From: an uncultured Oscillospiraceae bacterium | GTDB taxonomy: Bacteria > Bacillota > Clostridia > Oscillospirales > Oscillospiraceae | Assembly: GCA_949948775.1 (NCBI GenBank) | Contig: CATLHC010000017.1 | Span: 1 to 43,775, forward strand | Reading direction: 5' to 3' | Length of the DNA: 43,775 bases | Shown: piece after piece, positions 13,000 through 31,484 of the stretch | Position numbering within the stretch: position 1 is the first letter of the stretch | Layout: each line of letters starts with the position of its first letter | Notes under the pieces: model-generated | The model's input: only the letters and a program-made list of their open reading frames with translations | Told to the model about the DNA's origin: nothing | Database searches by the model: none | Position numbers and translations under genes: made by a program

Positions 13000-14586
13000 C
13001 TAATGCTTTGGGGTGTATTCAATCGCGTCGTCCAAAAGGCTGGCCTGCTGATTCTGGACTCGTTCCATATAGCGCAGCACCTGACAGGAGTGGAGAATTC
13101 CTGTTTTCTCAGCGCTGGCATCCAGGCTGATGCCCACCAGCTCTTTGATCTTGTTGAGTTTATATAGGACCGTATTGCGGTGCATATGGAGAAATTTAGC
13201 CGTTTGGGTGACGTTGCAGTCATTCACCACATAATAAAACAGAAAATCCCGCAAATCGGTGTTGTTTTGCATATCGTACCGGGTAAGATTCAAAATTTCA
13301 GGATAGGCAAAGTATACCAACCGGTCATGACCGAACTCCTCCATCAAATGGGAGGCGCACAGATGGATGGTATAATAACCAAGATAACGGTTCAGGCGGG
13401 CGCAGCGCTTGTCCGCCTCCAGCCGCAGTTTTGGAATCATATCCAGCACCTCCCGGGACTGGATATATTCGGTGCGTATTCCTTTTTCCAGTGTACATGC
13501 GTTGCTGAGGATGGCAAAGCCGTTGTGGGCCTGCAGCAATTCCTCCAAGGCCTCCAGCCCGCACTCCTTTTCATCTACACGGGCTGATTTACTGAAAGAG
13601 AGGAGCACAACAATCTTACCGTCGTAAACGGTGACATTGCTGGAGGAAAAAATGGCGTTAACCTTTGGGAACAGCTCGGATAAGGGCGCTGCACTGTCCT
13701 CAAAAGAGATGATTAGAAAGCGAATCCATGGACCGGTGGCAATGGGCAATTTTAGCATATCCGCCATCAGATGGCGGGGATTCTGTCTGTAATAGACATA
13801 CATGCGGTCAATAAAAAGCCGGAAGGGGTCGTCCCTCAATACATCAAGGGATTTGTCGCTGGCGCGCAGACAGGCAGTCAGGCGCTTTGAAAGCAGATGG
13901 GAGAAAGACTCCGCCCAGCCGTCTGGGTCCGCTCCGGCGATAAGAAGGTGGCCAAGGGTGCGGTCCTGGTCACGGAGAGGGCACATGCGGTAAGAGATCT
14001 GGTAAATGTTAGCAGCCCCGGTGGGAACGCCGCTGGCCAGCAACTGGCCAAAAAGCTTGTTGATTTGGGCGGGGGAGAGCCGCTGATGGGTGTCCGGTTG
14101 AGTGATATCGCGCATTCGGTCCGTAGCTTGGCCGGAGGCAACAATATTGAAGCAGGAGTCAATGAGGAAAAAAGAACAGTCTGTCAATGAAGCGGCACAT
14201 TGGAGCAAGTGGAATAGATAATCCTTCCCGGGGAGCACGGCGGAGAGGGCGTTTTCCCACTCCGCCAGGCGGGCCAGGTTTTCCGAGAGACGGTTATGGA
14301 GCGCTGGCAGCGGCATGTTGCAGCTGATCACATTCGCTTTTGCAGGCAGAGAGACGCCGTTGGGCAGCGGGCCGGAACAGAATACAGTGACGATTTTCTC
14401 CGGATCCGCATCGCACAATAGGGCGGCGATTTGCTCCCCGTCCCCCACATAGATGATGTCGGAACGGATGGGTCTGCCCGCCTCCGGAAGCATTAGACCG
14501 GAAAGCCGTTCGACTCCCTTTGTGGAAAGAGAGCGGGAAAGTATGACAGTGTCCATGCCACAGCAAAGCGAGTCAAAATATATCAT
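13000..14586 (-). CDS. PucR/CdaR-type transcriptional regulator, module A
   Basis: Regulator of 528 aa ending in a PucR-type helix-turn-helix (HTH_30): DLRDFLFYYVVNDCNVTQTA and KFLHMHRNTVLYKLNKI at about residues 445-485. The central region (about residues 260-420) resembles the GGDEF-like CdaR domain found in this family; the N-terminus is a PucR-like sensor of unknown ligand. The ATG at 14586 is chosen because GGAGGG lies 7 nt upstream; a TTG six bases earlier is less likely. It diverges from the aldo/keto-reductase-permease-GRE genes and is the probable activator or repressor of that operon. A paralogue of nearly equal length controls module B. Confidence 0.9.
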   Translation of the reverse strand: MIYFDSLCCGMDTVILSRSLSTKGVERLSGLMLPEAGRPIRSDIIYVGDGEQIAALLCDADPEKIVTVFCSGPLPNGVSLPAKANVISCNMPLPALHNRLSENLARLAEWENALSAVLPGKDYLFHLLQCAASLTDCSFFLIDSCFNIVASGQATDRMRDITQPDTHQRLSPAQINKLFGQLLASGVPTGAANIYQISYRMCPLRDQDRTLGHLLIAGADPDGWAESFSHLLSKRLTACLRASDKSLDVLRDDPFRLFIDRMYVYYRQNPRHLMADMLKLPIATGPWIRFLIISFEDSAAPLSELFPKVNAIFSSSNVTVYDGKIVVLLSFSKSARVDEKECGLEALEELLQAHNGFAILSNACTLEKGIRTEYIQSREVLDMIPKLRLEADKRCARLNRYLGYYTIHLCASHLMEEFGHDRLVYFAYPEILNLTRYDMQNNTDLRDFLFYYVVNDCNVTQTAKFLHMHRNTVLYKLNKIKELVGISLDASAEKTGILHSCQVLRYMERVQNQQASLLDDAIEYTPKH

Positions 14587-14627
14587 GCACAAGCCCTCCG
14601 CTTCAAAGCATTTGCTGTACCAATGTT

Positions 14628-14633
14628 ATTATA
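14628..14633 (-). promoter_or_regulatory. -10 element of the module A regulator gene
   Basis: On the minus strand TATAAT, 42 nt upstream of the start codon. No strong -35 at 16-18 nt; TTGTCG lies at 19 nt. In the same AT-rich gap (14587-14913) TATCGAC occurs twice as a direct repeat near 14675-14695. Confidence 0.4.
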
Positions 14634-14838
14634 CACTATTTTCGGGCTGGCGCGACAATTATTTTTTGTGGGTATCGACAAAAATATCGACTTCCACTGT
14701 GCACGTGAACAAATTTGAACGGCATTGGCATGTTTTTGATTTTGGGACGAAAGAAACAGGCCCCGATTTATGCGGAAAGCCGGAGGGGCTGGATAGATTT
14801 GTGTGGGCATCCATTGTGGAAAAAACGCCTCAAATGAT

Positions 14839-14844
14839 ATGATG
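14839..14844 (+). promoter_or_regulatory. -10 element of the module A operon
   Basis: TATGAT, about 70 nt before the aldo/keto-reductase-like start. The best -35 candidate, TTGTGG at 14814-14819, is 19 nt away, so the promoter probably needs an activator. Confidence 0.4.
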
Positions 14845-14852
14845 CCCATGGG

Positions 14853-14867
14853 AACAGAACTTGTTCT
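14853..14867. promoter_or_regulatory. Candidate operator of module A
   Basis: GAACA-N5-TGTTC, a perfect 5-bp inverted repeat with a 5-nt centre, 8 nt downstream of the TATGAT element, at the expected transcription start. Function inferred from position only. Confidence 0.35.
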
Positions 14868-14913
14868 TCTTCGTTTTAAAAAGGAAATCTGTCCAAAAGA
14901 AGGAGGAACTGAG

Positions 14914-15915
14914 ATGAGTGAGATGGGAAAAGACCTGAAGCAAAAAGCAGTCGATTTGCTCTGCCTGGGCTCCTGGCATATTTACAGCCGAATGTCTCTG
15001 GATGAGAACGTGAAATTCATTCAGGGCGCTATGGAACGGGGAATCAACCATTTTGACATTGGCGACTATTGGGATCATGACCTGCTGAATACGCGGCGCT
15101 TTAAAGAGGTGGCGGATATTCTGGGCCTGAGGCGGGAGAGCTATCGTCTGGGGCTGAAGGTGTTCACCAATTCCACCGAGAGCCGGGAATTAGTGGTCAA
15201 ACGGATGCTGGATCTGCTGGGCATGGAATACGCCGATTACATCCTCTTCTCCCGCCCCAATCCCCAGGAGACCATGCAGGAAGCGGTAGAGGCCATGAAC
15301 GAGTTGGTGGAGCAGGGTTTGACCAAGGAACTGGATTTCTCGCTGTGGGACGCGCCTTTGCTCAAGCAGGCCTACGACCTGCTGCAGTCACAGAACATGC
15401 ACCTGCCGCGCTTCGTGCAGTTCCAGTACAACATCTGCCGCAGGGATGTGGTGGAGTCCAAGGCGTATCAGGCCCTGTTCCGGGACACTGGAATGAAGCT
15501 CCAGGCGGCCTTTACGCTGGAGGGAGGAATTCTGGGCGGCCATGTGACCCGCCGCCGCTTTGAGCCGGAGGAGAGGGCTCAGGGCATCTGGTTCCCTGCG
15601 GAGGAGCGCAATATGGCCCGGGACTCCGGCGGCATCCGCCGTGAGATCGTGAGAAAGGTGCCGCGGCTCATTGAGGTGGCCCAATCTGTAGGCCTGTCTC
15701 CGGCTCAGCTGGCCATGGCTTTCCCTGCCACCAACCCCAATATTGAAAACGTCCTATTTGGGGCGACCAAGCTTTGGCAGCTGGATGAGGCCATCGGCGC
15801 CATGGAGTTTGCCCTGACCAGGCCGGATGAGGTTCGGGCGCTGACGCAGGAGTTCTATACCGCCGGCGCCGAGGCGCCGCATCTGTTTGACTTCAACGGC
15901 GGTCATCTCCATTGA
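14914..15915 (+). CDS. Aldo/keto reductase-like protein with altered active site
   Basis: TIM-barrel protein of the aldo/keto reductase family, 333 aa. Recognisable parts: GAMERGINHFDIGDYW (family: GINFFDTAxxYG) near residue 50, Lys82 in LGLKVF, and a C-terminal PATNPNIENVLFGATKLWQLDEAI stretch that is the usual NADP-binding end. Asp48, Tyr52 and Lys82 can be matched to the catalytic tetrad, but the His of the usual LHRPDP motif is replaced: the sequence reads ILFSRPNP with Ser113. The spacing between Asp and Tyr is also one residue short. It may be a weak reductase or have another role. The ATG at 14914 has AGGAGG 7 nt upstream. First gene of the module A operon. Confidence 0.82.
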   Translation: MSEMGKDLKQKAVDLLCLGSWHIYSRMSLDENVKFIQGAMERGINHFDIGDYWDHDLLNTRRFKEVADILGLRRESYRLGLKVFTNSTESRELVVKRMLDLLGMEYADYILFSRPNPQETMQEAVEAMNELVEQGLTKELDFSLWDAPLLKQAYDLLQSQNMHLPRFVQFQYNICRRDVVESKAYQALFRDTGMKLQAAFTLEGGILGGHVTRRRFEPEERAQGIWFPAEERNMARDSGGIRREIVRKVPRLIEVAQSVGLSPAQLAMAFPATNPNIENVLFGATKLWQLDEAIGAMEFALTRPDEVRALTQEFYTAGAEAPHLFDFNGGHLH

Positions 15916-15930
15916 GAGGGGAGGGAGCAC

Positions 15931-16308
15931 ATGATGAAGCGGCTGGAGGGGAAATGCGCCGTCGTCACCGGCGCGGGCGCCGGACTGGGCCGAGGAATCG
16001 CGCTGCGCCTGGCTTCTGAGGGCGCGCGGGTACTCGCGGCGGACCTGAAGCTGGAGGCCGCCCAAGAGACTGCCGCGGATATTCGTGCGGATGGAGGCTG
16101 CGCCGAGGCGTTTGCGTGCGATGTGACGCGGGAGGACGACGTGGCGGCCATGGCGCAGTTCGGAATGACCGCCTATGGGAAGCTGGACCTGCTGTGCAAC
16201 AACGTAGGGGCCTCCTTTGAGGCCCGGAATGTTTTGCGAATCACCGAATTGACCCAGGAACAATGGAATTTTTTGCTCGACATCCCGAAACGGTCCGCTG
16301 GGTCCTGA
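15931..16308 (+). pseudogene. Truncated short-chain dehydrogenase/reductase
   Basis: The N-terminal half (about 125 aa) of an SDR-family oxidoreductase. The NAD(P)-binding TGAGAGLGRG glycine motif and the NNVG of the fourth strand are present, followed by a typical ITELTQEQWNFLLD helix. Then the frame shifts into unrelated sequence and stops. The catalytic Ser and YxxxK that should follow are absent in all frames before the next gene, so the enzyme cannot be active as an SDR. The remaining 77 nt to the permease gene show no SDR remnant, which points to a deletion of the 3' half. The ATG at 15931 has a GGGAGG site upstream. Confidence 0.8.
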
Positions 16309-16385
16309 TTTCAGGCGGCTTTCGCAGAAAAAGAACCGCGCTGCTGCATAGAAACATAAAATTGATTTGGGAGAGGAGCATATAT

Positions 16386-17702
16386 ATGTCAAATACTGTT
16401 ATGATTGCCGCGCTGGTAGTTGGCTTGATTGCGGCCTTGGTCATCAGCACAAAATTTAACATTAACGCGGGCATTTTGGGCCTTCTTGTGGCCTGGATCG
16501 TGGGCGGCTGGATGGGAAAGCTGAGCGTGACGACGCTGGTGGGGTATTGGCCCACTTCCGTTATGTTCATCGCCATCACCACCACCCTGTTTTTCGGCGT
16601 CGCTCGGGAAAACGGCACGTTGACCTTATTTGCCAATAAGGTCATGTACGCCACCCGAAAATTTCCCTGGTTTATACCCATCGCCCTCTATCTCACCGCG
16701 TGGGTTGTGGGCGCCGCCGGGGCCGGCGCTATGGCGGCCCAAATTGCCCTGTCGGCCATTGGGTTTGCCATTGCCGGCCAGACTGGAATGCACCCGCTGC
16801 TGGTGATTCTGGCCGTCTTTCTGGGCGGTGGCGGTGGCGGCGGCATGTTCTGGAGCTCTGAGGGCGCCAACCGGATTGCCTTTTACGGCCAGGCCGGCGT
16901 GGCCGAAGACGCCGTTACCTACAGCGCCATGGCCTACAGCCTGTATTCCTTTATCATTTTTACACTCATTTTCCTGATGGGTTATGTGGTATTTAAGGGC
17001 TGGAAAATCGATACGGCAAATTTGAATATGGAGAAGCCGGCTCCCTACGATGATAAGCAGAAACCCACCCTGGTGCTCATCGCTGTCTGCCTGGGGCTGG
17101 TGATTGGCAGCGCCGTGTGGAAATGCTTCTGGCCCAGCGACCTGTCTAAGTATCTGGCGGGACAGCTGAGCATCCAGATGGTCTGTTTGGCGGGATTTGT
17201 GGTGGCCTTTTTCCTGAAGCTGGCCGACGCGAAGGCGGTGATGAAGCGAATTCCTTGGGACTTAATCTTGAATATCGGCGGAATGTGTGTGATGATTAAG
17301 GTGCTGATCAACTGCGGCATTACCGATATGGTAGCGGCCGTTTTCGCCGGAGACATTCCCAAGTTCATCATCCCCGTGCTTTTCTTTATCATGGCGGGCG
17401 TCATCACGCTCTTTTCCAATTTCACGGTTATCTATCCGCTTCTTATGCCGCTGGTTCCCGTGGTGGCCGCCGCTGCAGGCTGCAATTCCGTGACATTATT
17501 TACGGCCATGTGCCTGGGTTCCTTTACTCCCGGCATCTCGCCGTTTTCCACCGGCGGCGCCTGCTGTCTGTCCGGCTGTCCCGACGAGAAAACCCGCCAG
17601 GAGCTGGTGCCGAAAGTGTTTATTATGAGCCTTGTAATCATCGCTGTCATCTGTGCGCTGCTGCTGACTCCTATCATCAGTTTCCTGCCCGACTGTTTGT
17701 GA
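16386..17702 (+). CDS. MatC/SLC13-like carboxylate permease, module A
   Basis: Inner-membrane transporter of 438 aa with about 11-12 hydrophobic segments. It resembles the DASS/ion-transporter superfamily permeases often annotated as MatC-like or SLC13-like carboxylate carriers. Two segments stand out: a glycine run with GGGGGGGMFWSSEG near residue 150 and GSFTPGISPFSTGGA near residue 390; the latter matches the two-fold repeated ion-binding hairpin region of this superfamily. The ATG at 16386 has GAGGAG 8 nt upstream. It precedes the GRE gene and probably imports the GRE substrate, likely an organic acid. The module B permease has the same length and the same ISPFSTGGA motif. Confidence 0.85.
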   Translation: MSNTVMIAALVVGLIAALVISTKFNINAGILGLLVAWIVGGWMGKLSVTTLVGYWPTSVMFIAITTTLFFGVARENGTLTLFANKVMYATRKFPWFIPIALYLTAWVVGAAGAGAMAAQIALSAIGFAIAGQTGMHPLLVILAVFLGGGGGGGMFWSSEGANRIAFYGQAGVAEDAVTYSAMAYSLYSFIIFTLIFLMGYVVFKGWKIDTANLNMEKPAPYDDKQKPTLVLIAVCLGLVIGSAVWKCFWPSDLSKYLAGQLSIQMVCLAGFVVAFFLKLADAKAVMKRIPWDLILNIGGMCVMIKVLINCGITDMVAAVFAGDIPKFIIPVLFFIMAGVITLFSNFTVIYPLLMPLVPVVAAAAGCNSVTLFTAMCLGSFTPGISPFSTGGACCLSGCPDEKTRQELVPKVFIMSLVIIAVICALLLTPIISFLPDCL

Positions 17703-17728
17703 GAGAGCGGCGGCCACACAGGATGACG

Positions 17729-17754
17729 GGGCCGGACGCTTTAGCGTCCGGCCC
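17729..17754 (+). other. Intercistronic hairpin between permease and GRE genes
   Basis: A 12-bp perfect stem (GGGCCGGACGCT at 17729-17740 with AGCGTCCGGCCC at 17743-17754) with a tight 2-nt loop and no T run. It is more likely an mRNA stability or processing element than a terminator and could raise GRE expression relative to the permease. Confidence 0.5.
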
Positions 17755-17774
17755 ACCGGAAAGGAGGAATTGAT

Positions 17775-20207: not shown

Positions 20208-20261
20208 GCTGTCTCAACGTTTTTCCCCCAGCGCGGATCTTCGTCCCCTTGGCACAAAACG

Positions 20262-20302
20262 GCCCTGCCCGGTCCGGCGAATTTGTCCGGACCGGGCAGG
20301 GC
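20262..20302. terminator. Bidirectional terminator between module A and the kinase gene
   Basis: A 16-bp perfect stem (20262-20277 with 20287-20302) with T-rich sequence on both sides (GTTTTCGTT to the right, GTTTTGTG on the minus strand). It separates two convergent genes. Confidence 0.88.
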
Positions 20303-20310
20303 GTTTTCGT

Positions 20311-21981
20311 TCAGGCGAGGTAACAGCCCCCGCCGATGAATTCCCGCATAAGGGAGGTCTTGGGGATGTTGTCCGCGGGGATGGGCAGGAAGTAATTCAG
20401 GAACTTCAGCAGCCGCTTGGCCTCAATGTACTCCTCGCTGTCCCGGGGCACGCCGAACAGCAGCGGCTGGACATAGGGCTTCAGCAGCGCCGTCTCATAG
20501 ATCAGGGCCGAGTTGAAGATCATGTCCGCGCTGTCCTGGAAGGGAAAGATGTTGTTCTCCTCCCCACGGCGGACGTTGGGCCACATCTTGATGGTGGCCT
20601 GGGCGCTGTAGCCCCGGGTGCGGGCGTCCCGCTCGATGCGGCGCAGCAGGCGGGCGTCGGTGGTGGGGATGCGGTTGTGGTCGTCGATGTTCAGCGTGGT
20701 CAGGCAGCTGATGTAGATCTTGTACTTGCTCTCCTTGGGCAAGGCGTGGGTGAACTGGTCGTTGAGGCAGTGGATGCCCTCGATGACAAGCACGTCCTCC
20801 GCGCCCAGGGTGAGGAAATTGCCGTTATACTCCCGTGCGCCCTTTTTGAAGTTGTAGCTGGGCATCTCCACCGTCTCGCCGTTCAGCAGACGCATCATGT
20901 CCGTATTGAACTGTTCCACGTCCATGGCGCCCAGGCCCTCGAAGTCGTAGTTGCCGTTCTCGTCCCGGGGGGTCCTGTCCCGGTTCACGAAATAGTTGTC
21001 GGTGGCGATGGCGTGGGGGCGCAGGCCGCAGGCGCGCAGCTGGGTGGACAGGCGGTGGGAGAAGGTGGTTTTGCCCGAGGAGGAGGGCCCCGCGATCATG
21101 ACGAAGCGGACCTCCTTCCGGGCGGCGATCTCGGCGGCGATGTCGCCGATCTTCTTCTCCATCATGGCCTCGTAGGTCAGGATCAGCGGCACGGTGCCGC
21201 CCTGGGAGACAATGGTGTTCAGCGCCGCCACGTTGGAGACGTTCAGCGATTCGGCCCGCAGCGTGGAATCGTACAGCGCCCGGTAGACCTTCATGGAGGG
21301 CTTGAACTGACCCAGCTCGTCGGGATTCTTCAGGGTGGGCAGGCGCAGCACAAAGCCGTCCTCAAACAGCTCCAGGCCGAAGCAGCGGATATAGCCGGTG
21401 TCCGGCACCATGTAACCGTAGAAGTAGTCCACAAAGCCGTCCAGCGAGTAGACGTTGACGTGGGAGTTCACCCGGAAGCTGAGCAGCTCGGCCTTGTGGA
21501 CCAGCCCTTCTTTGCGGAACAGCTCCATGGCGTCGTCGGTGTTGATGGACTTCTTTTCAATGGGCAGCGCCTGGGCGGACAGCTCCCGCATCCGCGCCTC
21601 CACCCGGTCCAGCAGGGGCTGATTCAGGGTAAAACCGCCCTGGGCGCGGATAAAGAGGGCGCGGCTGAGGGAGTACTCCACCGAGATGCGCTCCACATTT
21701 TCCCTGCCCGCCACGTCGTAAAAGGCCTTCAGCATCAGGAATACCGCGCTGCGTTCATAGGTCTGGATGCCGGGCACGTCCCGGGCAGTGACCATTTTCA
21801 GCGAACAGTCCCGGTCCAGCACCTTGTGCAGCTCGCACAGCTTCCCGTCCCGGTTCACCAGCAGGATGTCGCAGGGGAACCGGCTCTGAAAGTCCGCCGA
21901 AATGGCGCGGTAGGGCGTCCCCTGGGCATAGGCGTACTCCGCGCCGTCCACGGTGACCTGAAACATTTTACTCTCTTCCAT
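20311..21981 (-). CDS. Uridine kinase-like nucleoside kinase with TGS/ThrRS-like N-terminus
   Basis: Cytoplasmic P-loop kinase of 556 aa. The C-terminal 290 residues are a uridine kinase/phosphoribulokinase-type domain: Walker A GPSSSGKTT near residue 285, ATDNYFVNRDRTPRDENG (substrate loop) near 315, and VIEGIHCLNDQ near 390. The N-terminal 270 residues resemble the TGS and second additional domain of threonyl-tRNA synthetase, an architecture common in Firmicute nucleoside kinases. The ATG at 21981 has AAGGAGG 7 nt upstream. It has its own promoter and terminator, so it is probably a housekeeping gene unrelated to the GRE modules on either side. Its exact substrate is not certain. Confidence 0.9.
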   Translation of the reverse strand: MEESKMFQVTVDGAEYAYAQGTPYRAISADFQSRFPCDILLVNRDGKLCELHKVLDRDCSLKMVTARDVPGIQTYERSAVFLMLKAFYDVAGRENVERISVEYSLSRALFIRAQGGFTLNQPLLDRVEARMRELSAQALPIEKKSINTDDAMELFRKEGLVHKAELLSFRVNSHVNVYSLDGFVDYFYGYMVPDTGYIRCFGLELFEDGFVLRLPTLKNPDELGQFKPSMKVYRALYDSTLRAESLNVSNVAALNTIVSQGGTVPLILTYEAMMEKKIGDIAAEIAARKEVRFVMIAGPSSSGKTTFSHRLSTQLRACGLRPHAIATDNYFVNRDRTPRDENGNYDFEGLGAMDVEQFNTDMMRLLNGETVEMPSYNFKKGAREYNGNFLTLGAEDVLVIEGIHCLNDQFTHALPKESKYKIYISCLTTLNIDDHNRIPTTDARLLRRIERDARTRGYSAQATIKMWPNVRRGEENNIFPFQDSADMIFNSALIYETALLKPYVQPLLFGVPRDSEEYIEAKRLLKFLNYFLPIPADNIPKTSLMREFIGGGCYLA

Positions 21982-22053
21982 GGGATGGCCTCCTTTGTAT
22001 GTATGATCGTCCCGCCGGGGGAGCGGCTGCGTCTCCCTCGTGTCTCTATTCCT

Positions 22054-22082
22054 ATCATACGATAGTTTGCGCAAAAATACAA
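22054..22082 (-). promoter_or_regulatory. Promoter of the uridine kinase-like gene
   Basis: On the minus strand: TTGTAT (22082-22077), 17-nt spacer, TATGAT (22059-22054); leader about 65 nt. Confidence 0.6.
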
Positions 22083-23103: not shown

Positions 23104-24672
23104 TCACTGCAGCTCCTTCTGCATCACGTTCTCATAATACCGCATGATCTGGCAGGAGATCAGCAAACGCTGGCGCAGCCGGGGGTCGTCCATCTCCATG
23201 CAGGTCAGCTTCTTGATTAGGTTCACCTTGTTGTTAACGGTATTTCGGTGCATATACAGGTCTGTGGCCGTCTTGTTCACATTCCCGTCGTTGAGCAGAA
23301 AATAGAACAGCACGTCCCGCAGGTTGGCGTTGTGCGCCCGGTCGTATCGGGTCAGCGCCGTCACCGCCGGGTGGGCCAGATAGAGGATATCCTCATTCTG
23401 CTCCGCCTCCAGGTACCGCTGGACGCACAGGTCGATGAGGCTGTATATGATATAGTCCTCCGTAAAAAAGATCCGCTCCGCTTTGTCCTGGCACAGCAGG
23501 CAGGCCAGTTCGTTGGTACGCTTGCTCAGCAGATACATGGACGCGATGGCCTCGGCGTGCCGGGTGCCGTTGCCGATCATCATAAAGCCGTCGTACCGCT
23601 TTAAAAGGGCCGTGAGCTTCTCCGTCTGCTCCGGTCCGCCCAGAGAGGGCCGGAAATCCCGCTCCTTATGGCTGTACAGCAGGATAATGTCCTTTTGATA
23701 GACCGCCATATTGGTGCTGGGGAAAAAGCCCCGCAGGCGGCTGAGCAGATAGTTGTACGGCACCCGGATGTTGTCGTTTTTGAAAGAGATGACCACCACC
23801 CGCAGAAAGTTCTGCACCGGGCGGGGCAGTGTGGACAGGGCGGAGCGAATCTCCATGCGGTTGATCAGCCGCCGCTCCATCACATCCTCCCAAAACCGCT
23901 GGAAGGTTCTGATCTCCGGGTCCATGCGGCTCGTATCCCGGGAGAGCAGCTGCCGGCGCAGGCACTGCATCACGCAGGCGCACAGGCTCTGCAGATCCGT
24001 ATCCGCCCCCTCGCCGCCCTCCAGCAGCAAAATGCCCAGCACCTCGCCCTCCCAGGCACTCCGGCAGGCGAAGACGGCGGTCCCCGTCTCCTTCACCGTG
24101 AGCGTGCCCCAGCTCTCCTGAGGCGCGCCGGGCGGGAACAGCTTTTTCATAACATCCTGTGGCAGAACGCCGGCTTCGGAGAGCTGCCCGGCCAAATAGG
24201 AGGACTCCTCCAGCCCGGCGGAGTCCATGACCCGCCCCTGCCAGTTCAGCAGCGCCGCGCCGCACGCCCCGGACCGGGCGGCCATGCGCAGCGCCTCGTG
24301 GATTCCCGCGTCCTGGTCCAGCAGGTCCTGGCAGTTCTTCTTCCACAGCTCCGCCCGGCGGATGTTCCGGGCCGTCAGGTTGTACAGCCGGGGCAGCGGA
24401 CAGGACAGCAGCGCCAGGGCGCAGCCCTCCGGCGCGGCGGGGCGCATTCCCTTCTCCGCCCCGGCCAGCAGCACAAGGCAGCCGGGAGCGGCCTGGATTC
24501 CGCTCAGCCGCTCCAGCCACGTCGCTTCCCCCAGATAGATCCGGTCCGGCAGCAGCTCAGTTTGTGTATCCAGCAGTTCCAAGCTGTCCGGGCAATGATC
24601 CCTGTCCGGAGGGATTGCGGTGTGGACAGTGACCGACCTCAACCGTCCAAGCAGATAGCGCAGACTCAGCAC
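23104..24672 (-). CDS. PucR/CdaR-type transcriptional regulator, module B
   Basis: Regulator of 522 aa with the same plan as the module A regulator: N-terminal PucR-like sensor, CdaR-like central domain and C-terminal HTH_30 (ANLRDVLFYFLLNDGNVNKT and DLYMHRNTVNNKVNLIKKL). The start is taken as GTG at 24672 because GGAGGA lies 7 nt upstream and because the resulting N-terminus (LSLRYLLGRLRSVTV) aligns with the start of the module A paralogue; upstream ATGs at 24687 and 24738 have no proper ribosome site. It diverges from the permease-esterase-GRE operon and is followed by the activase gene. Confidence 0.88.
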   Translation of the reverse strand: MLSLRYLLGRLRSVTVHTAIPPDRDHCPDSLELLDTQTELLPDRIYLGEATWLERLSGIQAAPGCLVLLAGAEKGMRPAAPEGCALALLSCPLPRLYNLTARNIRRAELWKKNCQDLLDQDAGIHEALRMAARSGACGAALLNWQGRVMDSAGLEESSYLAGQLSEAGVLPQDVMKKLFPPGAPQESWGTLTVKETGTAVFACRSAWEGEVLGILLLEGGEGADTDLQSLCACVMQCLRRQLLSRDTSRMDPEIRTFQRFWEDVMERRLINRMEIRSALSTLPRPVQNFLRVVVISFKNDNIRVPYNYLLSRLRGFFPSTNMAVYQKDIILLYSHKERDFRPSLGGPEQTEKLTALLKRYDGFMMIGNGTRHAEAIASMYLLSKRTNELACLLCQDKAERIFFTEDYIIYSLIDLCVQRYLEAEQNEDILYLAHPAVTALTRYDRAHNANLRDVLFYFLLNDGNVNKTATDLYMHRNTVNNKVNLIKKLTCMEMDDPRLRQRLLISCQIMRYYENVMQKELQ

Positions 24673-24736
24673 GGTACACTCCTCCATTCTTCCAAATGCG
24701 CGGGAGACAGCGTGTTCTCGGTGCGCTCCCATAAGC

Positions 24737-24742
24737 ATTATA
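24737..24742 (-). promoter_or_regulatory. -10 element of the module B regulator-activase operon
   Basis: Perfect TATAAT on the minus strand, 65 nt before the GTG start; the -35 region is poor (TGCAAA at 16 nt). Confidence 0.45.
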
Positions 24743-24759
24743 CATTACTTTTTGCTCTT

Positions 24760-24774
24760 TTGCACATATTGCAA
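24760..24774. promoter_or_regulatory. Candidate operator of module B
   Basis: TTGCA-N5-TGCAA, an inverted repeat with the same 5-5-5 layout as the module A candidate but different sequence. It overlaps the -35 region of the regulator promoter in the 359-nt gap between the divergent genes. Confidence 0.4.
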
Positions 24775-24875
24775 TCAAAAATTCCCGCCTTTTTCGTAAA
24801 AATGTTCACCCTGCACATCGAGCTTCACTTTTTTTGTGCCGCGTAAACAGAAAATGACGACTTTCACTTTTTTCC

Positions 24876-24904
24876 TTGCGAACCGAGGACAAATATGCTA
24901 TTTT
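24876..24904 (+). promoter_or_regulatory. Candidate promoter of the module B permease-GRE operon
   Basis: TTGCGA (24876-24881), 17-nt spacer, TATTTT (24899-24904). The leader of about 120 nt is very GC-rich (around 24945-24985) and may fold. Confidence 0.45.
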
Positions 24905-25031
24905 CAAGCCAAGATCAGCGGCTGTCCGCCGCCTGTGCGCACCGTGGGGGACGGGGCGCCGGGGGCGCGGGCGGCGGCTGGCCCTTGTCGGACCAAAGGC
25001 CATCACGTGATTCAGAGAGAGGAGTTTTTGA

Positions 25032-26348
25032 ATGGAAGTCCAAGTTCTGCTGTGGGTTGTTCTGGCGGCTGTGGCCGTCTCCATCGCCCTGAGCTACTTC
25101 TGCAAAGTCAACATCGGCATACCGGCACTGATCTTCGCGTACATCATCGGCGTGTTCATCCAGGGGATGAAGGTCAAAGAGGTAGTGGCCCAGTGGCCCA
25201 CCAGCGTGGTGTTCCAGCTGATGACCATCACCATGTTCTTCTCCTTTGCCATCTTCAACGGCACGCTCCCCAAGGTGGCGGACAACATCATCTACCGGTT
25301 CCGCAACAACGCCAAGGTCATCCCCTTCGCCCTGCTGCTCATCGGCACCGTCATCGGCGCCCTGGGCGCGCCTCCCCCGGCCTGCAACACGATCCTGGCT
25401 GTGCTCACCTTCACCATCGCCATCCCCGCAGGCCTGAGCCCCTGGCTGTGCGCCGTCATCGTCTGCTTCGGCGGCTCCATCGGCACCTTCTTCCCCTGGG
25501 CGGTCCAGGGCTCGGTGGTCAAGACACGCACCGACGAGATGCTGGCGGAGACCGCGCTGGCCGGCCAGGGCGAGCTTACCGCCTATAAGACCTGCCTGCA
25601 CTGGATTCTCTTCACCCTCATCATCTTCCTGATCTTCTTCTTTGTCACCAAGGCGTTCAAGATCGGCAAGGTGGACGTGAAGAAGCCCGAGCCCTTCACC
25701 AAAGAGCAAAAGACCAACCTGTGGATCATCATCGTGGTGGCCGTCCTGGTCATCGCCCCCAACCTGCTCAAGCTCTTCATCAAGGGCAACGCCACCCTCA
25801 ACCTGCTGGCCTCCGCTCTGGACATCCAGATGCTGGCCATCATCGGCACCCTGCTGTGCACCATCCTGAAGCTGGGCAGTGAGCGGGACGCCATCGTCAA
25901 GGGCGTGCCCTGGAACACCATCATGATGGTGGGCGGCGTGTGCACCCTGATGGGCGTGGCCTCCGCCGCCGGTGTCACCCAGTACATCGGCGACCAGCTG
26001 GCCGCCAGCTCTTTCTCCCCCTCCGTCATCGGCGCCATCCTGGCTCTGATCGGCGCGTTCCTCAGCCTGTTCTCCGGCGCCATCAACGCCGTGTTCCCCA
26101 TGCTGGGCGCCATCGCCGTGCCCTATGCCGTCAGCGCCGGCATCAGCCCCATCCCCCTGCTGGTGGCCATCGCCGTGGGCGCCTCCGCCACCGCCATCTC
26201 CCCCTTCTCCACCGGCGGCGCCATTATGATCGCCAACGTGCCCGACCAGAAGGTGGCCGACGGCCTGTTCATCAAGACCATCGTGCTGGCCATCGTGGGC
26301 GCGGCCGTGGCGGCTCTCATGGCCGTGACCGGCATTTTCTCCATCTGA
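25032..26348 (+). CDS. MatC/SLC13-like carboxylate permease, module B
   Basis: Inner-membrane transporter of 438 aa with about 11-12 hydrophobic segments, the same superfamily as the module A permease and exactly the same length. Shared features are the N-terminal helix followed by a KVNIGIPALIFAYIIG-like segment, the VAQWPTSVVFQ motif (module A: VGYWPTSVMF) and ATAISPFSTGGA near the C-terminus. The first hairpin differs: module B has GAPPPACNT where module A has AGAGAMAAQ. The ATG at 25032 has GAGAGGAG 7 nt upstream. It begins the operon with CapA, esterase and GRE genes and is the likely importer of the GRE substrate or the acid released by the esterase. Confidence 0.87.
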   Translation: MEVQVLLWVVLAAVAVSIALSYFCKVNIGIPALIFAYIIGVFIQGMKVKEVVAQWPTSVVFQLMTITMFFSFAIFNGTLPKVADNIIYRFRNNAKVIPFALLLIGTVIGALGAPPPACNTILAVLTFTIAIPAGLSPWLCAVIVCFGGSIGTFFPWAVQGSVVKTRTDEMLAETALAGQGELTAYKTCLHWILFTLIIFLIFFFVTKAFKIGKVDVKKPEPFTKEQKTNLWIIIVVAVLVIAPNLLKLFIKGNATLNLLASALDIQMLAIIGTLLCTILKLGSERDAIVKGVPWNTIMMVGGVCTLMGVASAAGVTQYIGDQLAASSFSPSVIGAILALIGAFLSLFSGAINAVFPMLGAIAVPYAVSAGISPIPLLVAIAVGASATAISPFSTGGAIMIANVPDQKVADGLFIKTIVLAIVGAAVAALMAVTGIFSI

Positions 26349-26435
26349 TTCAGCCGCTGAGCGGCGGGCCGCCCGCAAAACGCCGGACGGCCCGTCCGCG
26401 TGAGGCCAGGCCTTCGCGAGAAAGGAGAATTCTCT

Positions 26436-27560
26436 ATGGGTGAAAAGCTTTTGATCGCCACCGGCGACATCGGTCCCAACCGGGAGAACCCGGACGAGAT
26501 GTTTAACGGCGTCCGGGCGTCTCTCCAGGAGGCGGATCTGCTGTTCGGCCAGCTGGAACCCTGCATCGCCCACACCGGAACCCCGGCCGCCCAGTGCCGT
26601 CTGCCCATGCGCTGCCGTCCGGAGAGCGCCGCCGCCATCCGCCGGGCGGGCTACGACGTGATCTCCTTTGCCACCAACCACTGCATGGACTGGGGCCGCC
26701 CCGCCTTCTTCGAGACGCTGGAGCTGCTCCAGGCCCAGGGAATCCGGACCATCGGAGCCGGAGCGGATATTTTCGCCGCCCGCCGTCCCGCCGTTGTGGA
26801 TCTGGACGGCACAAAAATCGGCTTTCTGGGCTACAACAGTATTCTGCCCCAGGATTACTGGGCCAATGAGGAACGGCCCGGCTGCGCCCCCCTGCGTGGC
26901 ATCACCGCCGCCGTCCCCCGGGAACACGACCAGCCGGAGACCCCGGTGCGGCTGTTCTCCTGGCCCCACCCCGACGACCTGGACGCCATGCTGGACGACA
27001 TCGCCCGGCTGCGCCCCCAGGTGGACGTGCTCATTGTCTCGTTCCACTGGGGCATTCACTTCGTCCCCGCCGTGCTGGCCCAGTATCAGCGGTACGCCGC
27101 CCACTTCGCCATCGACGCCGGGGCCGACCTGATCCTGGGCCACCACACCCATATTCTCAAGCCTATGGAGGTCTACAAGGGCAGGGCCATCGTCTACTCC
27201 ATGGCCAACTTCGCCCTGGAGGAGCCCGGCCGGTTTTTCGAGGGCAAGGGCGAGCTGACCCAGTCCAAATCCCACCAGGATATTGCCGCGCTGAACCCCG
27301 ATATGAAAAAAAGCAGGCGGCAGATGCCGGTGGACTCGTACAAAACCCTGTATGTCAAATGTGTCATTGACGAAAAGCGGATCAAGCGGGTCTCTTTCGT
27401 CCCGGTGCAGCTGGATGAGGGCGCCGTCCCCCATACGTTGAACCCGGAGGATCCCCGCTTTGGGGAAATCGTGGACTATATGCGCCGAATCACCGCGGAT
27501 CAAAAGCTGGATACCCAGTATACCGTGGACGGCGGCGAGGTGTACCTCATCCGCGACTGA
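26436..27560 (+). CDS. CapA/PgsA-type metallophosphatase domain protein
   Basis: Protein of 374 aa with the CapA-type calcineurin-like metallophosphoesterase fold. Metal-ligand motifs are visible in order: ATGDIGPNRE near residue 10, FATNHCMDWG near 75, SFHWGIHFVP near 205 and LGHHTHILKP near 235. No signal peptide or membrane anchor is present, unlike the CapA/PgsA proteins of capsule and polyglutamate systems, so it should be cytoplasmic. The ATG at 26436 has AAAGGAG about 8 nt upstream. It lies between permease and esterase genes in the module B operon. A role in processing the imported compound is possible; a capsule role is unlikely from context. Confidence 0.88.
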   Translation: MGEKLLIATGDIGPNRENPDEMFNGVRASLQEADLLFGQLEPCIAHTGTPAAQCRLPMRCRPESAAAIRRAGYDVISFATNHCMDWGRPAFFETLELLQAQGIRTIGAGADIFAARRPAVVDLDGTKIGFLGYNSILPQDYWANEERPGCAPLRGITAAVPREHDQPETPVRLFSWPHPDDLDAMLDDIARLRPQVDVLIVSFHWGIHFVPAVLAQYQRYAAHFAIDAGADLILGHHTHILKPMEVYKGRAIVYSMANFALEEPGRFFEGKGELTQSKSHQDIAALNPDMKKSRRQMPVDSYKTLYVKCVIDEKRIKRVSFVPVQLDEGAVPHTLNPEDPRFGEIVDYMRRITADQKLDTQYTVDGGEVYLIRD

Positions 27561-27617
27561 GCCGCGGCGCCATGGCCCCTGCACAACCGTTACATTTTTA
27601 GAAGGAGGCAGACATCA

Positions 27618-28964
27618 ATGAAGCGCAGAAAGACCATCATATCCAGCGCGGCCCTTGCCCTGTGTATGTCCCTCACCTTTGCCCTGTCCTTCTGTACCGC
27701 CTGGGCCAGCCCGGCGCCCGCCCAAGAGGCTGAGGCGGTCCCCACTATGAATACCAAGACCATCAACGGCAGCAGCAATCTGGCCTGGCAGCCCAAGGGC
27801 CTGTTCATTAAGCCGGATGCGGACCGCATTTTGGTGGACTACTGCACCTACATGCTGAAGACCCCGCTCCAGACGAAGGACGGCGTGTCCTTTATCCTGC
27901 TGGACGATTTGACCGCGCTGTACTCCCCTGACTTTAAGGTGGAGAACAAGGACGGCAGCATCACCATCACCCACGCCGGGGTTTCCGCCCAGATCGAGGT
28001 GGGCAGCACCGAGGCCACCTTCTACACTGGCAAGGGCACTTTGATCGCCGCCCCTTTCCAGGATGGCGACGATGTGTATGTCCCTCTTATGGACCTGATG
28101 ATTAAGGGCTTCGGCAAAACCAGGAGTGAGCTGAACGGCTATTACGGTCTGGGCAACAGCGCTGATTTTACCGTGACCCGAGACGATGTGTACAATCTGA
28201 AGATGTTCTTCCGGGGCAAGGATGTGGGCAAAAGCTACTGGGCCTATTGGAATGAGGACACGCAAAGCCTGGAACCCGTGGTGGTGTACATTCCCTCCAC
28301 CTACGACGCCAAGAAGCCGAATAAGATGATCGTTCAGCTCCACGGCGCCAGCGGCAACGCCATGCGTATCCCTGACAGTGACGATGGCGTTCTGATGATG
28401 CGGGAAGCCGAAAAGCGGGGCTATATCGTCATGTGGCCCAACACCTACGGCGCCCAGTGCAACTTCGGCATGTGGGTTCAGCCCGCGGGCCAGCTCCCCA
28501 TTACCGATCAGACCGACCCACAAAATCCCGCCGGTCACTCTGAGGCCAAATTGGCCGACATCAAGCTGTCCGGTGAGAACGTCCAGAAGGCCATGGATTT
28601 TGTGGAGAGCAAGTGGAGCATCGACGAGAAAAAGGTGTACATCATGGGCATCTCCATGGGCGGCTGCGGCACCTGGTATCAGGCTGCCGCCTATGGTGAC
28701 CGCTTCGCTGCGGCCAGCCCCTCCGGCGCCTTTGTGGAGCCTGCGTATTTCGACTGGAGTACCGTCAAAATCCCCACCTTGTACGTGGGTGGCACCGAGG
28801 ACCGCAACGGCTTTGACCTGATGCGCAACGCCTATGACATCGCCAAGAGCCAAAAGGCCAACATCGTCCAGTTTATCACAGTGGGCGGAGCCCCCCACGG
28901 CGGCGAGTGGCCGGTGGTACTGGAGGAGACCTTTGAGTTCTTCGAGCGCTACTCGAAAAAGTAA
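27618..28964 (+). CDS. Secreted serine esterase with copper-amine-oxidase-like N-terminal domain
   Basis: Exported hydrolase of 448 aa. Residues 1-31 are a signal peptide ending near AWASPAPA. Residues about 60-170 (KGLFIKPDADRILVDY, then VYVPLMDLMIKGFG) resemble the copper amine oxidase N-terminal-like domain common in secreted clostridial proteins. Residues about 200-448 are an alpha/beta hydrolase similar to PHB depolymerase/feruloyl esterase-type enzymes: nucleophile Ser346 in MGISMGGCG, Asp395 in GGTEDRNG and His427 in GGAPHGGEW form a likely catalytic triad. It should release an acid or alcohol from an ester at the cell surface. Its position before the GRE gene suggests it supplies the substrate imported by the permease. 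The natural ester is unknown. Confidence 0.85.
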   Translation: MKRRKTIISSAALALCMSLTFALSFCTAWASPAPAQEAEAVPTMNTKTINGSSNLAWQPKGLFIKPDADRILVDYCTYMLKTPLQTKDGVSFILLDDLTALYSPDFKVENKDGSITITHAGVSAQIEVGSTEATFYTGKGTLIAAPFQDGDDVYVPLMDLMIKGFGKTRSELNGYYGLGNSADFTVTRDDVYNLKMFFRGKDVGKSYWAYWNEDTQSLEPVVVYIPSTYDAKKPNKMIVQLHGASGNAMRIPDSDDGVLMMREAEKRGYIVMWPNTYGAQCNFGMWVQPAGQLPITDQTDPQNPAGHSEAKLADIKLSGENVQKAMDFVESKWSIDEKKVYIMGISMGGCGTWYQAAAYGDRFAAASPSGAFVEPAYFDWSTVKIPTLYVGGTEDRNGFDLMRNAYDIAKSQKANIVQFITVGGAPHGGEWPVVLEETFEFFERYSKK

Positions 28965-29009
28965 CGGGGCACAGCCCTGTGGATAGAATGGCAAAAGGAG
29001 ATATCGCTT

Positions 29010-31412
29010 ATGTATGAACGGATTGAACGCATCAAAAAGCGGGTGGTTGTAGACCACTATCCCATCTGCATTGAAAAGTACCGCATCACCGCCGACGTGC
29101 TGGAGCACTCCAAGCACGACCCCGCCGTGATCCAGCGGGGCAAAATGCTCCGTGCTTACGCCGAACGCATGCCCATCGCCATCGCCGACGACGAGCTGAT
29201 CGTGGGACTGGGCGCCTCCAAGCCCATGGGGCTGGAGATCGACCCCAACTACGGCATCTGGACCCAGGACGAGATCGACAGTCTGGTGGAGGACGGCTAT
29301 CTCATGAGCGAGGAGGACCAGCGCGACCTCCAGGAGCTGAATAAGTACCATGACCCCGCCACTCAGATCGGCATGCAGGGCGACCTCTTCTACGAGCCGG
29401 AGAACGAGCGCATTCTGAAGCTGCTCAAGGCCGGCCTGGTCCTGCCCCCCTGGAAGGAGAAGTCCGAGGGCGGCGGCGTGGGCGGCGGCTACGCCCAGAG
29501 TGGCCTGGGCCTGGGGCCCAGCCTGGTGCTGCTGCTGGTGGACTACACCAAAATCCTCCACAACGGCACCAACGCCCTTATTGAACAGGCCCGCGCCTGC
29601 CAGAGAGAGCTGCGCTTTACCGACGGGGAGAGCATCGACAAGTTCCGCACCTACCAGGCCATGATCATGGCCTTTGAGGCCATGAATACCTTGGCCGGGC
29701 GGTACTCCAAGCTGGCCGCAGAGATGGCGGAAAAGGAGAGCGACCCCGCGCGCCGGGCGGAGCTGGAGTCCATCAGCGCCATCTGCGCCAAGGTGCCCAT
29801 GGAGCCCGCCTCCACCTTCCGGGAGGCCATCCAGTGCTTCTGGTTCCAATTCCTGATGCTCTCCCCCAGCACCACCCTGCCCGGCGGCCGCTTTGACCAG
29901 TACATGTACCCCTACTACAAGGCCGACCTGGACGCGGGGCGCATCACCCGGGAGCAGGCCCTGGAGCTGCTGTGCTGCATGCGCCTGAAGGACATGGAGC
30001 TCAACCGCACCTCCGGCAAGAATAACCGGAAAAAGAACGCCGGCTTCGCCAAATGGCATAACTTTATCATCGGCGGCGTGAAGCCCGACGGCAGCGACGC
30101 CACCAACGACCTGAGCTACCTGCTGCTGGACGCCGCGCTCATCACCCGCACCCCCCACCACACCATCACCCTGCGGGTGGCTCCCTCCACCCCCAAGGAC
30201 CTGATTTTGAAGGGCGTCCAGTGCCAGGCCGAGGGGCTGAGCATGCCCGCCTTTGTCAGCGACCAGAGCTACATTCATTTCTTCACCATGCACGGCGTCT
30301 CTCTGGAGGACGCCCGGGACTACGCCATCACCGGCTGCCTGGACGCCAACCTGGCGGGCAAGAGCCGCACCGGCCCGGTACCCATGACCATCATGACCGT
30401 CATCTTCGACCTGTTCCGCCACAATGGCGTCAACACCAAGAACGGTGAGCTGGCAGGCATCCAGACCGGCGACTTCACCCAGTTCCAGAGCTTTGAGGAG
30501 ATGTTCGCCGCCTGGGAAAAGCAGTTCAAATACTGCCTGAGCGTGGTGGGCGAGCGCAACAACGTGGAGCTGAAGGTCACCCAGGAGGTCCTGGTGGATC
30601 CTCTGCGCTCCGCCCTGATGTACAAGGGCATCGAGAGCGGACGGGATATCTGGGCCCGCCACGACATCCCCTTCGACAACACCGCCTCCATCTGCACCAT
30701 CGGCATGGTCAATGTGGGCGATTCCTTCGCCGCCATCAAAAAGCTGTGCTTCGACGAGAAGAAGTACACCCTCAAAGAGCTGTACGACGCACTGGAAGCC
30801 AACTGGGACGGCTTTGAGGAGATGCGGCAGGACTTCAAGAACGCCCCCAAGTTCGGCAACAACGACCCCTATGTGGACGAGATCGTGGCCCGCTGCTACA
30901 AGCTGTTCACCGACTTCGTGCCGACGCTGCCCACCATCACCGGCGGCACCACCGTGCCCTGCGGCATCTCCATCACCAGCCATCAGCCAGGCGGCCTGCT
31001 CACCGGCGCCACACCCGACGGCCGCCGCGCGGGCGAGATCCTGGCCGACGGCACCATGAGTCCCATGCAGGGCGTGGACACCTGCGGCCCCATGGCCGTC
31101 ATGCAGTCCGCCATGAAGGTGGATCAGGATCCCTTCCAGGCCACGCTGCTGAACATGAAGTTCTCCCCCAACACCCTCAAGACCGATGAGGACAAGGCCA
31201 AGCTGGCCTCCCTCATCAGCACCTATCTCAACAACGGCGGGAAGCACGTGCAGTTCAACGTGGTCACCACCGAAACCATGATCGCCGCTCGGGAAAAGCC
31301 TGCCGAACACCGGGACCTGCTGGTGCGCATCGCTGGGTACAGCGCCTACTTTGTCCAGCTCAACGACGCCATGCAGCAGGAGGTCATCACCCGCACCGAG
31401 CACAGCCTGTAA
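29010..31412 (+). CDS. Glycyl radical enzyme (PFL2-like), module B, GCLD active site
   Basis: Glycyl radical enzyme of 800 aa. The radical glycine is Gly776 in RIAGYSAYFVQL, 24 residues from the end. The active-site cysteine is Cys443 in YAITGCLDANLAGK. The eliminase/decarboxylase signature Cys-X-Glu is changed to Cys-Leu-Asp, a conservative but unusual change that would place the carboxylate further away. Other family landmarks include GGGVGGGYAQSGLGLGPS near residue 155 (a glycine-rich segment) and GATPDGRRAGEILADGTMSP near 675. The ATG at 29010 has AAAAGGAG upstream. Last gene of the module B operon. It is only distantly similar to the module A enzyme apart from the common family motifs. 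Substrate unknown. Confidence 0.92.
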   Translation: MYERIERIKKRVVVDHYPICIEKYRITADVLEHSKHDPAVIQRGKMLRAYAERMPIAIADDELIVGLGASKPMGLEIDPNYGIWTQDEIDSLVEDGYLMSEEDQRDLQELNKYHDPATQIGMQGDLFYEPENERILKLLKAGLVLPPWKEKSEGGGVGGGYAQSGLGLGPSLVLLLVDYTKILHNGTNALIEQARACQRELRFTDGESIDKFRTYQAMIMAFEAMNTLAGRYSKLAAEMAEKESDPARRAELESISAICAKVPMEPASTFREAIQCFWFQFLMLSPSTTLPGGRFDQYMYPYYKADLDAGRITREQALELLCCMRLKDMELNRTSGKNNRKKNAGFAKWHNFIIGGVKPDGSDATNDLSYLLLDAALITRTPHHTITLRVAPSTPKDLILKGVQCQAEGLSMPAFVSDQSYIHFFTMHGVSLEDARDYAITGCLDANLAGKSRTGPVPMTIMTVIFDLFRHNGVNTKNGELAGIQTGDFTQFQSFEEMFAAWEKQFKYCLSVVGERNNVELKVTQEVLVDPLRSALMYKGIESGRDIWARHDIPFDNTASICTIGMVNVGDSFAAIKKLCFDEKKYTLKELYDALEANWDGFEEMRQDFKNAPKFGNNDPYVDEIVARCYKLFTDFVPTLPTITGGTTVPCGISITSHQPGGLLTGATPDGRRAGEILADGTMSPMQGVDTCGPMAVMQSAMKVDQDPFQATLLNMKFSPNTLKTDEDKAKLASLISTYLNNGGKHVQFNVVTTETMIAAREKPAEHRDLLVRIAGYSAYFVQLNDAMQQEVITRTEHSL

Positions 31413-31430
31413 TCCTTTGCCAAGGCGGTC

Positions 31431-31465
31431 AAAGCGCCTCTGCCCCAAAGGGCAGAGGCGCTTTT
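31431..31465 (+). terminator. Terminator after module B
   Basis: A 15-bp stem (31431-31445 with 31450-31464) with loop CAAA and a T4 tail, 19 nt past the GRE stop. It probably also serves the convergent DUF4125 gene, since A residues flank the left arm. Confidence 0.88.
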
Positions 31466-31484
31466 GTGTCCGAATGTGCAGCCG

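Follow-up and report, generated by a model that had tools for sequence, protein, structure and literature searches.

Glycyl radical enzymes (GREs) perform demanding anaerobic chemistry, including the formation of cresol and skatole, and to our knowledge many GRE subfamilies have no known substrate. This study concerns a 43,775-nucleotide stretch of an uncultured Oscillospiraceae bacterium (contig CATLHC010000017.1, here called the window), which is contig C17 of a genome of 2.82 Mb in 174 contigs, 89.4% complete, and which carries two adjacent gene modules, A and B, each with a PucR-type regulator, a MatC-type carboxylate permease and a GRE. Among described GRE systems, the 4-hydroxyphenylacetate decarboxylase (HPAD) and indoleacetate decarboxylase (IAD) clusters of Olsenella consist of GRE, activase and transporter, and those of Clostridium scatologenes have no transporter, according to PMC6181972. 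In these enzymes the residue two positions after the catalytic Cys (Cys+2) is Glu; mimicking phenylacetate decarboxylase (PAD) in IAD amounts to a Glu to Gln exchange, and the residue varies among GRE decarboxylases (PMC9248008).

Open reading frames (ORFs) of at least 100 aa in the window were compared with Pfam and NCBIfam profiles (Table 1). The two PucR - MatC - GRE modules lie side by side, with genes, strands and sizes as the initial annotation had given them. In module A, a PucR gene on the minus strand is followed by aldo/keto reductase, short-chain dehydrogenase (SDR) fragment, MatC and GRE-A genes on the plus strand. Module B has activase and PucR on the minus strand and MatC, CapA, secreted esterase and GRE-B on the plus strand, and its short gaps of 45-57 bp argue for a single operon. 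The accessory genes do differ between the modules, as had been stated, with the correction that the activase lies on the PucR-B side, on the minus strand; it is the sole activase among the window ORFs scanned. Both PucR proteins have the C-terminal HTH_30 domain, and the Pfam scan gave no match to the N-terminal PucR domain in either. Both MatC proteins exceed the MatC_N and CitMHS cut-offs of Pfam and are predicted to transport carboxylates.

With the PFL-like and Gly_radical domains of Pfam, both GREs far exceed the cut-offs, which places them in the GRE superfamily, and both keep the catalytic residues (Cys449 and Gly786 in GRE-A, Cys443 and Gly776 in GRE-B). Their glycyl radical would be set by a cognate radical SAM activase. 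At Cys+2, where GCVE-type GREs have Glu, GRE-A has His (GCTH, His451) and GRE-B has Asp (GCLD, Asp445); the Glu that marks GRE eliminases is absent from both. Each GRE matched 12 NCBIfam GRE models and reached the cut-off of none, and these cut-offs rule out membership of a named GRE family. The subfamily model TIGR01774 gave 458.7 bits for GRE-A and 504.2 bits for GRE-B against a cut-off of 678.2, and with the equivalog models both scored under half of the cut-offs, the top values being 475.5 (HpsG) and 467.7 bits (CutC) for GRE-B and 446.3 (HypD) and 412.6 bits (HpsG) for GRE-A. The HPAD model (NF033715, cut-off 1150 bits) gave 354.8 bits for GRE-B and 235.3 bits for GRE-A, and the IAD model (cut-off 1100) gave 408.3 bits for GRE-B. 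Ten related GREs were likewise under the cut-off of all eight NCBIfam models listed for each (E 1e-60). The initial annotation had asked whether the GREs fall into families with known substrates; no such family was hit. Among the publications listed by literature searches, none seemed to treat these loci, which does not prove their absence from print. Elsewhere in the material, a GRE of locus L152 (genome G231) matched the HPAD model above its cut-off (1314.2 bits) with the motif GCLAVAP, in which the Glu is absent, unlike in two other HPADs found.

The reading that we prefer, to which we give slightly less than an even chance, is that of two independent modules, in each of which PucR would turn on a carboxylate carrier and a GRE attacking the imported acid, in module B most likely by decarboxylation. 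Gene content, gene order, motifs and the repeated presence of carriers are observations on the sequences; the substrates and reactions are deduced. A carboxylic acid is the best inference for the substrate because no named-family cut-off was reached and because seven genera have carboxylate carriers alongside GREs of the GRE-B clade. This recurrence was surveyed within 8 kb of 57 GREs of classes B, C and D and of 28 control GREs (GRE frames of at least 1500 bases; Fisher test). The GRE classes A to E were named in this analysis by the motif after the catalytic Cys, and the labels G, g and L denote genomes, genera and loci as numbered here. MatC or TctA was found near 20 of the 57 B/C/D GREs, in seven genera, and near 2 of the 28 controls (p 0.007), and PucR near 18/57 and 0/28, respectively (p 4e-4). 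An activase was found near 23/57 and 10/28. Differences were not significant for CapA/PGA_cap (3/57 versus 0/28; PGA_cap also occurs near two GRE-C genes), esterase (3/57 versus 0/28), DUF4125 (8/57 versus 1/28), LysR (9/57 versus 1/28) and MmgE/PrpD (5/57 versus 2/28), and SDR genes were commoner near controls (2/57 versus 7/28, p 0.005). The controls comprised GCVE and GCME types, two GCAGS and seven GREs with unread motif. The test did not include five GCVE-type GREs beside clade members or one truncated GRE-D (L116); with these six added to the controls, carriers stand at 3/34.

The arrangement of these neighbours varies. The unrelated carriers MatC and TctABC occupy the same slot: GRE-D, TctB, TctA, TctC and GRE-B occur together in genera g41 and g106 (L037, L041, L116, L117, L118), a GCID-class GRE accompanies TctBAC in L044, PucR, GRE-C and MatC stand together on contig C1 of the present genome and in genera g74 and g61, and PucR, MatC, MmgE/PrpD and GRE-D do so in g74. 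The order activase-PucR followed divergently by carrier or GRE is shared by six loci of four genera (the window, L044, L045, L127, L128, L130). Of the closest GRE-B relatives, those in g41 and g106 have TctABC nearby, those in G797 and G859 have PucR and no detected carrier, and others (e.g. G083, G908) have neither. The strongest hint of carboxylic-acid substrates comes from the carriers, and for some pathways the AMP-binding ligase (L127), family III CoA-transferase (L049) and OYE-type flavoprotein (L135) neighbours point to aromatic or alkenoic acids. Esterase-type hydrolases accompany two kinds of B/C module; they occur in window module B, L128 and L130, where the protein has Peptidase_S15, BD-FAE and Cu_amine_oxidN1 domains, and suggest that the acid may be freed from an ester. 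Conservation of regulator and permease with the GREs, which the initial annotation had made a test of its proposal, holds for some members of the GRE-B clade and not for all.

In module B, the secreted esterase would thus free the acid, MatC would import it, the activase beside PucR-B would make the glycyl radical, and GRE-B would cleave the acid, most likely with removal of CO2 and with Asp445 replacing the usual Glu. If the reaction is a decarboxylation, exchange of acid and product through the carrier, combined with proton consumption, could conserve energy without shell, CoA ligase or aldehyde dehydrogenase. A GRE and a carrier would then suffice, as apparently in the third module of the genome; since a GRE with a carrier alone needs a product requiring no further pathway, this fits decarboxylation with product exchange.

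The tree of the C-terminal parts (46 rows, 317 columns) separates the two enzymes. GRE-A groups with two Chloroflexota GREs and the GCAGS class (support 100/99), and GRE-B with classes C, D, GCID and E (96/95). This B-E clade joins the 4-hydroxyphenylacetate decarboxylases at 83/83 (74 in a simpler model), and together with arylacetate decarboxylase (AAD) and the X-succinate synthases it has a support of 79/91 (71 in the simpler model). Kinship of the GRE-B clade to HPAD is therefore suggestive, not shown. A joint clade of A and B-E was not recovered in this tree, yet it is not rejected (AU p 0.09). The "two copies of one plan" that the initial annotation had seen share a plan and are no copies: the counterparts are only 28-32% identical (GRE 30%, MatC 32%, PucR 28%), which, with the GREs in different clades, rules out duplication of one module into the other. 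PucR-B is 43% identical to the PucR of the third module.

Several observations weigh against the preferred reading. For 37 of the 57 B/C/D GREs no MatC or TctA resembling the references was detected within 8 kb; some of these contigs are short, others are not, and several of the GREs are GRE-B relatives of genus g25. The p-values are optimistic: some of the carrier and PucR references were drawn from the loci under test, there is no independence among loci of the same genus, and four genomes (G060, G063, G106 and G038) supply 21 of the 22 control loci. The undetected carriers could mean that carriers and regulators are chance neighbours or serve other genes, so that the GRE substrates do not enter via MatC. 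We consider this quite improbable, as PucR and MatC accompany all three GRE loci found in the genome, other genera have a carrier of unrelated type in this position, and the short gaps of module B point to one operon. MmgE/PrpD, OYE and CoA-transferase neighbours further suggest multi-step pathways in some relatives, although MmgE/PrpD is also found near controls. The decarboxylase link itself depends on the 317 C-terminal columns; its 83/83 lies under the star threshold, with 74 and 71 in the simpler model, and the arylacetate decarboxylase 7e7l was placed elsewhere, on a long branch. A full-length FastTree without HPAD, X-succinate synthases and AAD joined A with B-E; such a single Glu-less clade appeared in FastTree only and was not recovered once decarboxylases and X-succinate synthases were added, though the AU value given above does not reject it.

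Lastly, full-length NCBIfam and PDB scores favour eliminases equally or more. The GREs could accordingly act on an imported hydroxy- or amino-carboxylate by dehydration (or deamination or desulfonation). The general acid/base would be Asp in B and His in A, replacing the usual Glu, and the product would pass to general metabolism or to the aldo/keto reductase, SDR and MmgE/PrpD neighbours. The best equivalog scores go to eliminase models, the nearest PDB chain to both GREs is the CutC entry 9f3w (404.1 bits for A, 425.9 bits for B), and the reductases of module A as well as the MmgE/PrpD dehydratase-family genes near GRE-D fit a hydroxy-acid route. All these scores remain below the cut-offs, however, the equivalogs by more than half; glycerol dehydratase and CutC have Glu at Cys+2 in the alignments, which classes A, B, C, D and E lack, and the C-terminal tree places B-E with HPAD. 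On balance, an eliminase is a serious possibility that we nevertheless hold to be doubtful.

The C-terminal part of GRE-B (349 residues from Ser452) has its best PDB match in the benzylsuccinate synthase (BSS) TutD, at 213 bits. Together with the di/tricarboxylate-type carriers and the family III CoA-transferase near relatives, this would agree with an X-succinate-synthase-like GRE-B that adds to fumarate, or reverses this, making or splitting a di- or tricarboxylate. Over its whole length, GRE-B scored 299.3 bits with benzylsuccinate synthase, lower than many other chains. X-succinate synthases are marked by small subunits and a fumarate-binding Arg. This Arg lies at Cys+15 in BSS and (1-methylalkyl)succinate synthase (MASS) (PMC12358834), and judging from the alignment ends, not from a structure, it seems not to be present at that place in GRE-B. 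We consider such a reaction highly improbable.

Module A would combine a His-type GRE with an aldo/keto reductase and, ancestrally, an SDR that is now truncated, and its acid is probably another one than that of module B, processed by redox steps. The SDR is broken, as had been annotated: 118 residues of the 125-aa fragment align to a full 250-aa SDR, its stop lies 77 bp before the MatC start, and the fragment is 43% identical to the 250-aa SDR of a Chloroflexota cluster that also has two A-type GREs, an epimerase-like gene and a class E GRE. No aldo/keto reductase was among the ORFs matched in 12.8 kb of that cluster. Among 72,556 plasmid records, the best match of the window aldo/keto reductase is on plasmid Mpl of Novosphingobium sp. 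PP1Y (34% by tblastn, 35% by blastp), a member of an aerobic genus. At a distance of 1.5 kb from this gene, beyond a frame-broken SDR, stands a class E GRE (B-E clade) that keeps Cys and Gly and to which GRE-B, too, has its best plasmid match. An open GRE frame at L083:6908-11903, on a Novosphingobium plasmid, has Cys and Gly, and no activase was seen within 7 kb of it (ORF list judged by eye); nor was an activase of the PP1Y plasmid among the 60 of 311 records listed. A second PP1Y reductase has His (HRW) at what is usually the catalytic His position of aldo/keto reductases, a position taken by Ser (SRP) in the window enzyme and in its Novosphingobium relative. Considering the window, PP1Y and Chloroflexota loci, GRE, SDR and aldo/keto reductase recur partly or wholly in three distant lineages, and none of the loci read has all three intact.

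The third-position GC of the five module A ORFs is 0.64-0.75 and that of the 25 other window ORFs scored is 0.76-0.93; by this deviation module A looks foreign, and it has the appearance of a recent import. No GRE-A match was found in 41 of 42 genomes of the genus, that is, in any but the window's own (E up to 1e-100). The 120 family genomes gave, besides the window, two matches (E up to 1e-150), both GCAGS-class GREs of 37-38% identity, and the 391 class genomes gave the window only (E up to 1e-170). The nearest relatives, at 59% and 54%, are the two GREs of one Chloroflexota metagenome-assembled genome (MAG), and no other genome among 249 of its class gave a match. GRE-B relatives of 64-71% identity occur in 6 of the 120 family genomes besides the window. 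A B/C/D profile gave matches in 33 of 400 family genomes and 15 of 106 genera, own included (at most two candidates were scored per genome and some listed places, e.g. in G821, were not read), and among 371 class genomes only in the window's genome and one of another family. The third module of the genome, on contig C1, has the order PucR divergent from GRE-MatC and a GRE of C type. Some family genomes are rich in PFL-like matches (G060 24, G063 19, G038 16, G106 13), some of which are contig-edge fragments.

The nucleoside-kinase-like gene between the modules is present in 18 of the 42 genus genomes including the own; it is 82-88% identical in 14 others, which makes a misbinned contig unlikely, and 69% in three. 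In the stretches of 10 relatives read, no GRE-module genes lie beside it, and two gave weak 25-34% ABC/sensor-kinase matches.

The pairing of A and B was seen in this genome only, among the 42 genus and 120 family genomes searched for GRE-A. With GRE-A and GRE-B in different clades and with different accessory genes, the "two related" acids of the initial annotation are not upheld, and its undescribed carboxylic-acid system is supported for module B's clade (no named-family cut-off reached, carriers in seven genera), a support that does not cover module A. A broader reading, rather unlikely as a whole, would be that an unnamed Asp-marked GRE branch (B, C, D) sustains minimal fermentations of a single step in uncultured bacteria, presumably Clostridia and probably gut-dwelling; that MatC or TctABC with a GRE forms an energy-conserving decarboxylase-antiporter pair for plant- or host-derived acids, which members of one family have diversified into several parallel modules per genome; and that a His-type GRE, very rare and accompanied by aldo/keto reductase and SDR, was transferred between Chloroflexota and this lineage.

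A palindrome, TGAACNNGTTCA, derived from L034 and L045, stands, in modules of classes C and D, in the spacers that separate PucR from the carrier or GRE (L034:9588; L045:6720, 6798, 13869 and 13958; L127:5952), including PucR spacers of the third module and of genus g74. The test loci (660,658 bases) hold 7 exact copies, of which that at L126:6896 lies outside such spacers, and the control loci (358,407 bases) hold 1; with one mismatch there are 35 and 21, respectively. It is a possible PucR operator. As a shared operator of the window modules it was rejected, no exact copy being present in the A or B spacer. Allowing up to two mismatches, positions 1-43775 hold 39 matches against 12.2 expected (0/100 shuffles had as many); these spread over the whole window, so no spacer is marked there, and the excess perhaps comes from codon usage.

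Table 1. Genes of modules A and B and their neighbours (window coordinates), with profile-match values.
Feature	Position	Strand	Matches and remarks
PucR-type regulator A, 528-530 aa	13000..14592	-	PF13556 HTH_30 1.6e-14; divergent from module A
Aldo/keto reductase	14914..15915	+	PF00248 1.7e-29; likely ATG start at 14914, with ribosome-binding site
Truncated short-chain dehydrogenase, 125 aa	15931..16308	+	PF00106 1.3e-22, profile positions 1-107 of 195
MatC-type carboxylate permease A (predicted), 438 aa	16386..17702	+	PF07158 1.3e-19, PF03600 2.8e-10
GRE-A, 810 aa	17775..20207	+	PF02901 2.9e-138, PF01228 7.4e-23; TTG start, motif GCTHP, loop RVGGFSAYY
Nucleoside-kinase-like gene	20311..22074	-	PF00485; separates modules A and B
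GRE-activating radical SAM enzyme, 312 aa	22120..23058	-	PF04055, Fer4; one CxxxCxxC (CPLRCLWC) and ferredoxin-type clusters
PucR-type regulator B	23104..24738	-	PF13556 6.1e-12
MatC-type carboxylate permease B (predicted), 438 aa	25032..26348	+	PF07158 8.4e-24, PF03600 1e-16
CapA/PGA_cap protein	26400..27560	+	PF09587 1.2e-62
Secreted alpha/beta-hydrolase esterase	27618..28964	+	PF01738 and PF00756 barely above cut-off; PF07833 Cu_amine_oxidN1 below cut-off
GRE-B, 800 aa	29010..31412	+	PF02901 1.9e-149, PF01228 2.5e-28; motif GCLDANLAGKSR, loop RIAGYSAYF
DUF4125 protein, possible module B member	31485..32183	-	PF13526 4.6e-55; recurs near GRE-B/C/D loci

The esterase also has a PHA-depolymerase-like NCBIfam match (1.3e-14, below cut-off) and, judged by eye, a signal-peptide-like N terminus. 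Among the genes at 13000-31465 the profile scan detected neither a shell gene nor a CoA ligase nor an aldehyde dehydrogenase, as the initial annotation had it, and among those at 13000-32183 no bacterial microcompartment (BMC) shell domain. The two divergent spacers measure 210 and 293 bp; all other gaps within the modules are at most 77 bp, which leaves little space for an unlisted shell gene. The claim is qualified by a LuxE-type acyl-protein synthetase and a LuxC-type acyl-CoA reductase 2.5 kb upstream of module A (8058-10471, ORFs overlapping at 9032-9212), flanked by a LuxR-type regulator and a DUF169 gene and possibly forming a separate carboxylate-reducing system. At 10508-12668, a DUF4130 gene adjoins a gene whose radical SAM and HHH matches are weak and stay below cut-off; the two are presumably a putative radical SAM partner pair.

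The genome context narrows the substrate search to imported carboxylic acids for the whole GRE-B clade and points to Asp445 and Arg453 of GRE-B and His451 of GRE-A as candidate residues. The 13 to 24 GRE matches in some family genomes represent a hidden catabolic repertoire, and a radical decarboxylase not known so far could yield volatile or bioactive products, as the cresol- and skatole-forming GREs do.

Compared with known systems, the Mpl cluster of PP1Y resembles the window in its GRE (38.5% to GRE-B), its broken SDR and its aldo/keto reductase (35% to that of module A), and differs in the GRE motif (GCLGVN), in that MFS-like and LysR-like genes, judged by eye, take the place of MatC and PucR, and in its alphaproteobacterial host; the record is unannotated there. 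With benzylsuccinate and alkylsuccinate synthases, GRE-B shares the best PDB match of its C-terminal part, TutD, but the fumarate Arg is seemingly absent. The GRE eliminases (CutC, trans-4-hydroxy-L-proline dehydratase, glycerol/propanediol dehydratase, HpsG/HpfG and isethionate lyase) have the same PFL-like domain family and the best whole-length scores, whereas the window GREs carry GCTH (A) or GCLD (B) instead of GCVE, stand in modules without shell genes and stay under half of the equivalog cut-offs. The HPAD, IAD and AAD loci are alike in that those of Olsenella join GRE, activase and transporter (PMC6181972) and in that the clade of GRE-B to E joins HPAD; they are unlike in that module B has Asp and not Glu, a PucR regulator, and MatC, or TctABC in relatives, instead of an MFS transporter. 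The modules can be regarded as a variant of the known GRE catabolic loci with a carrier.

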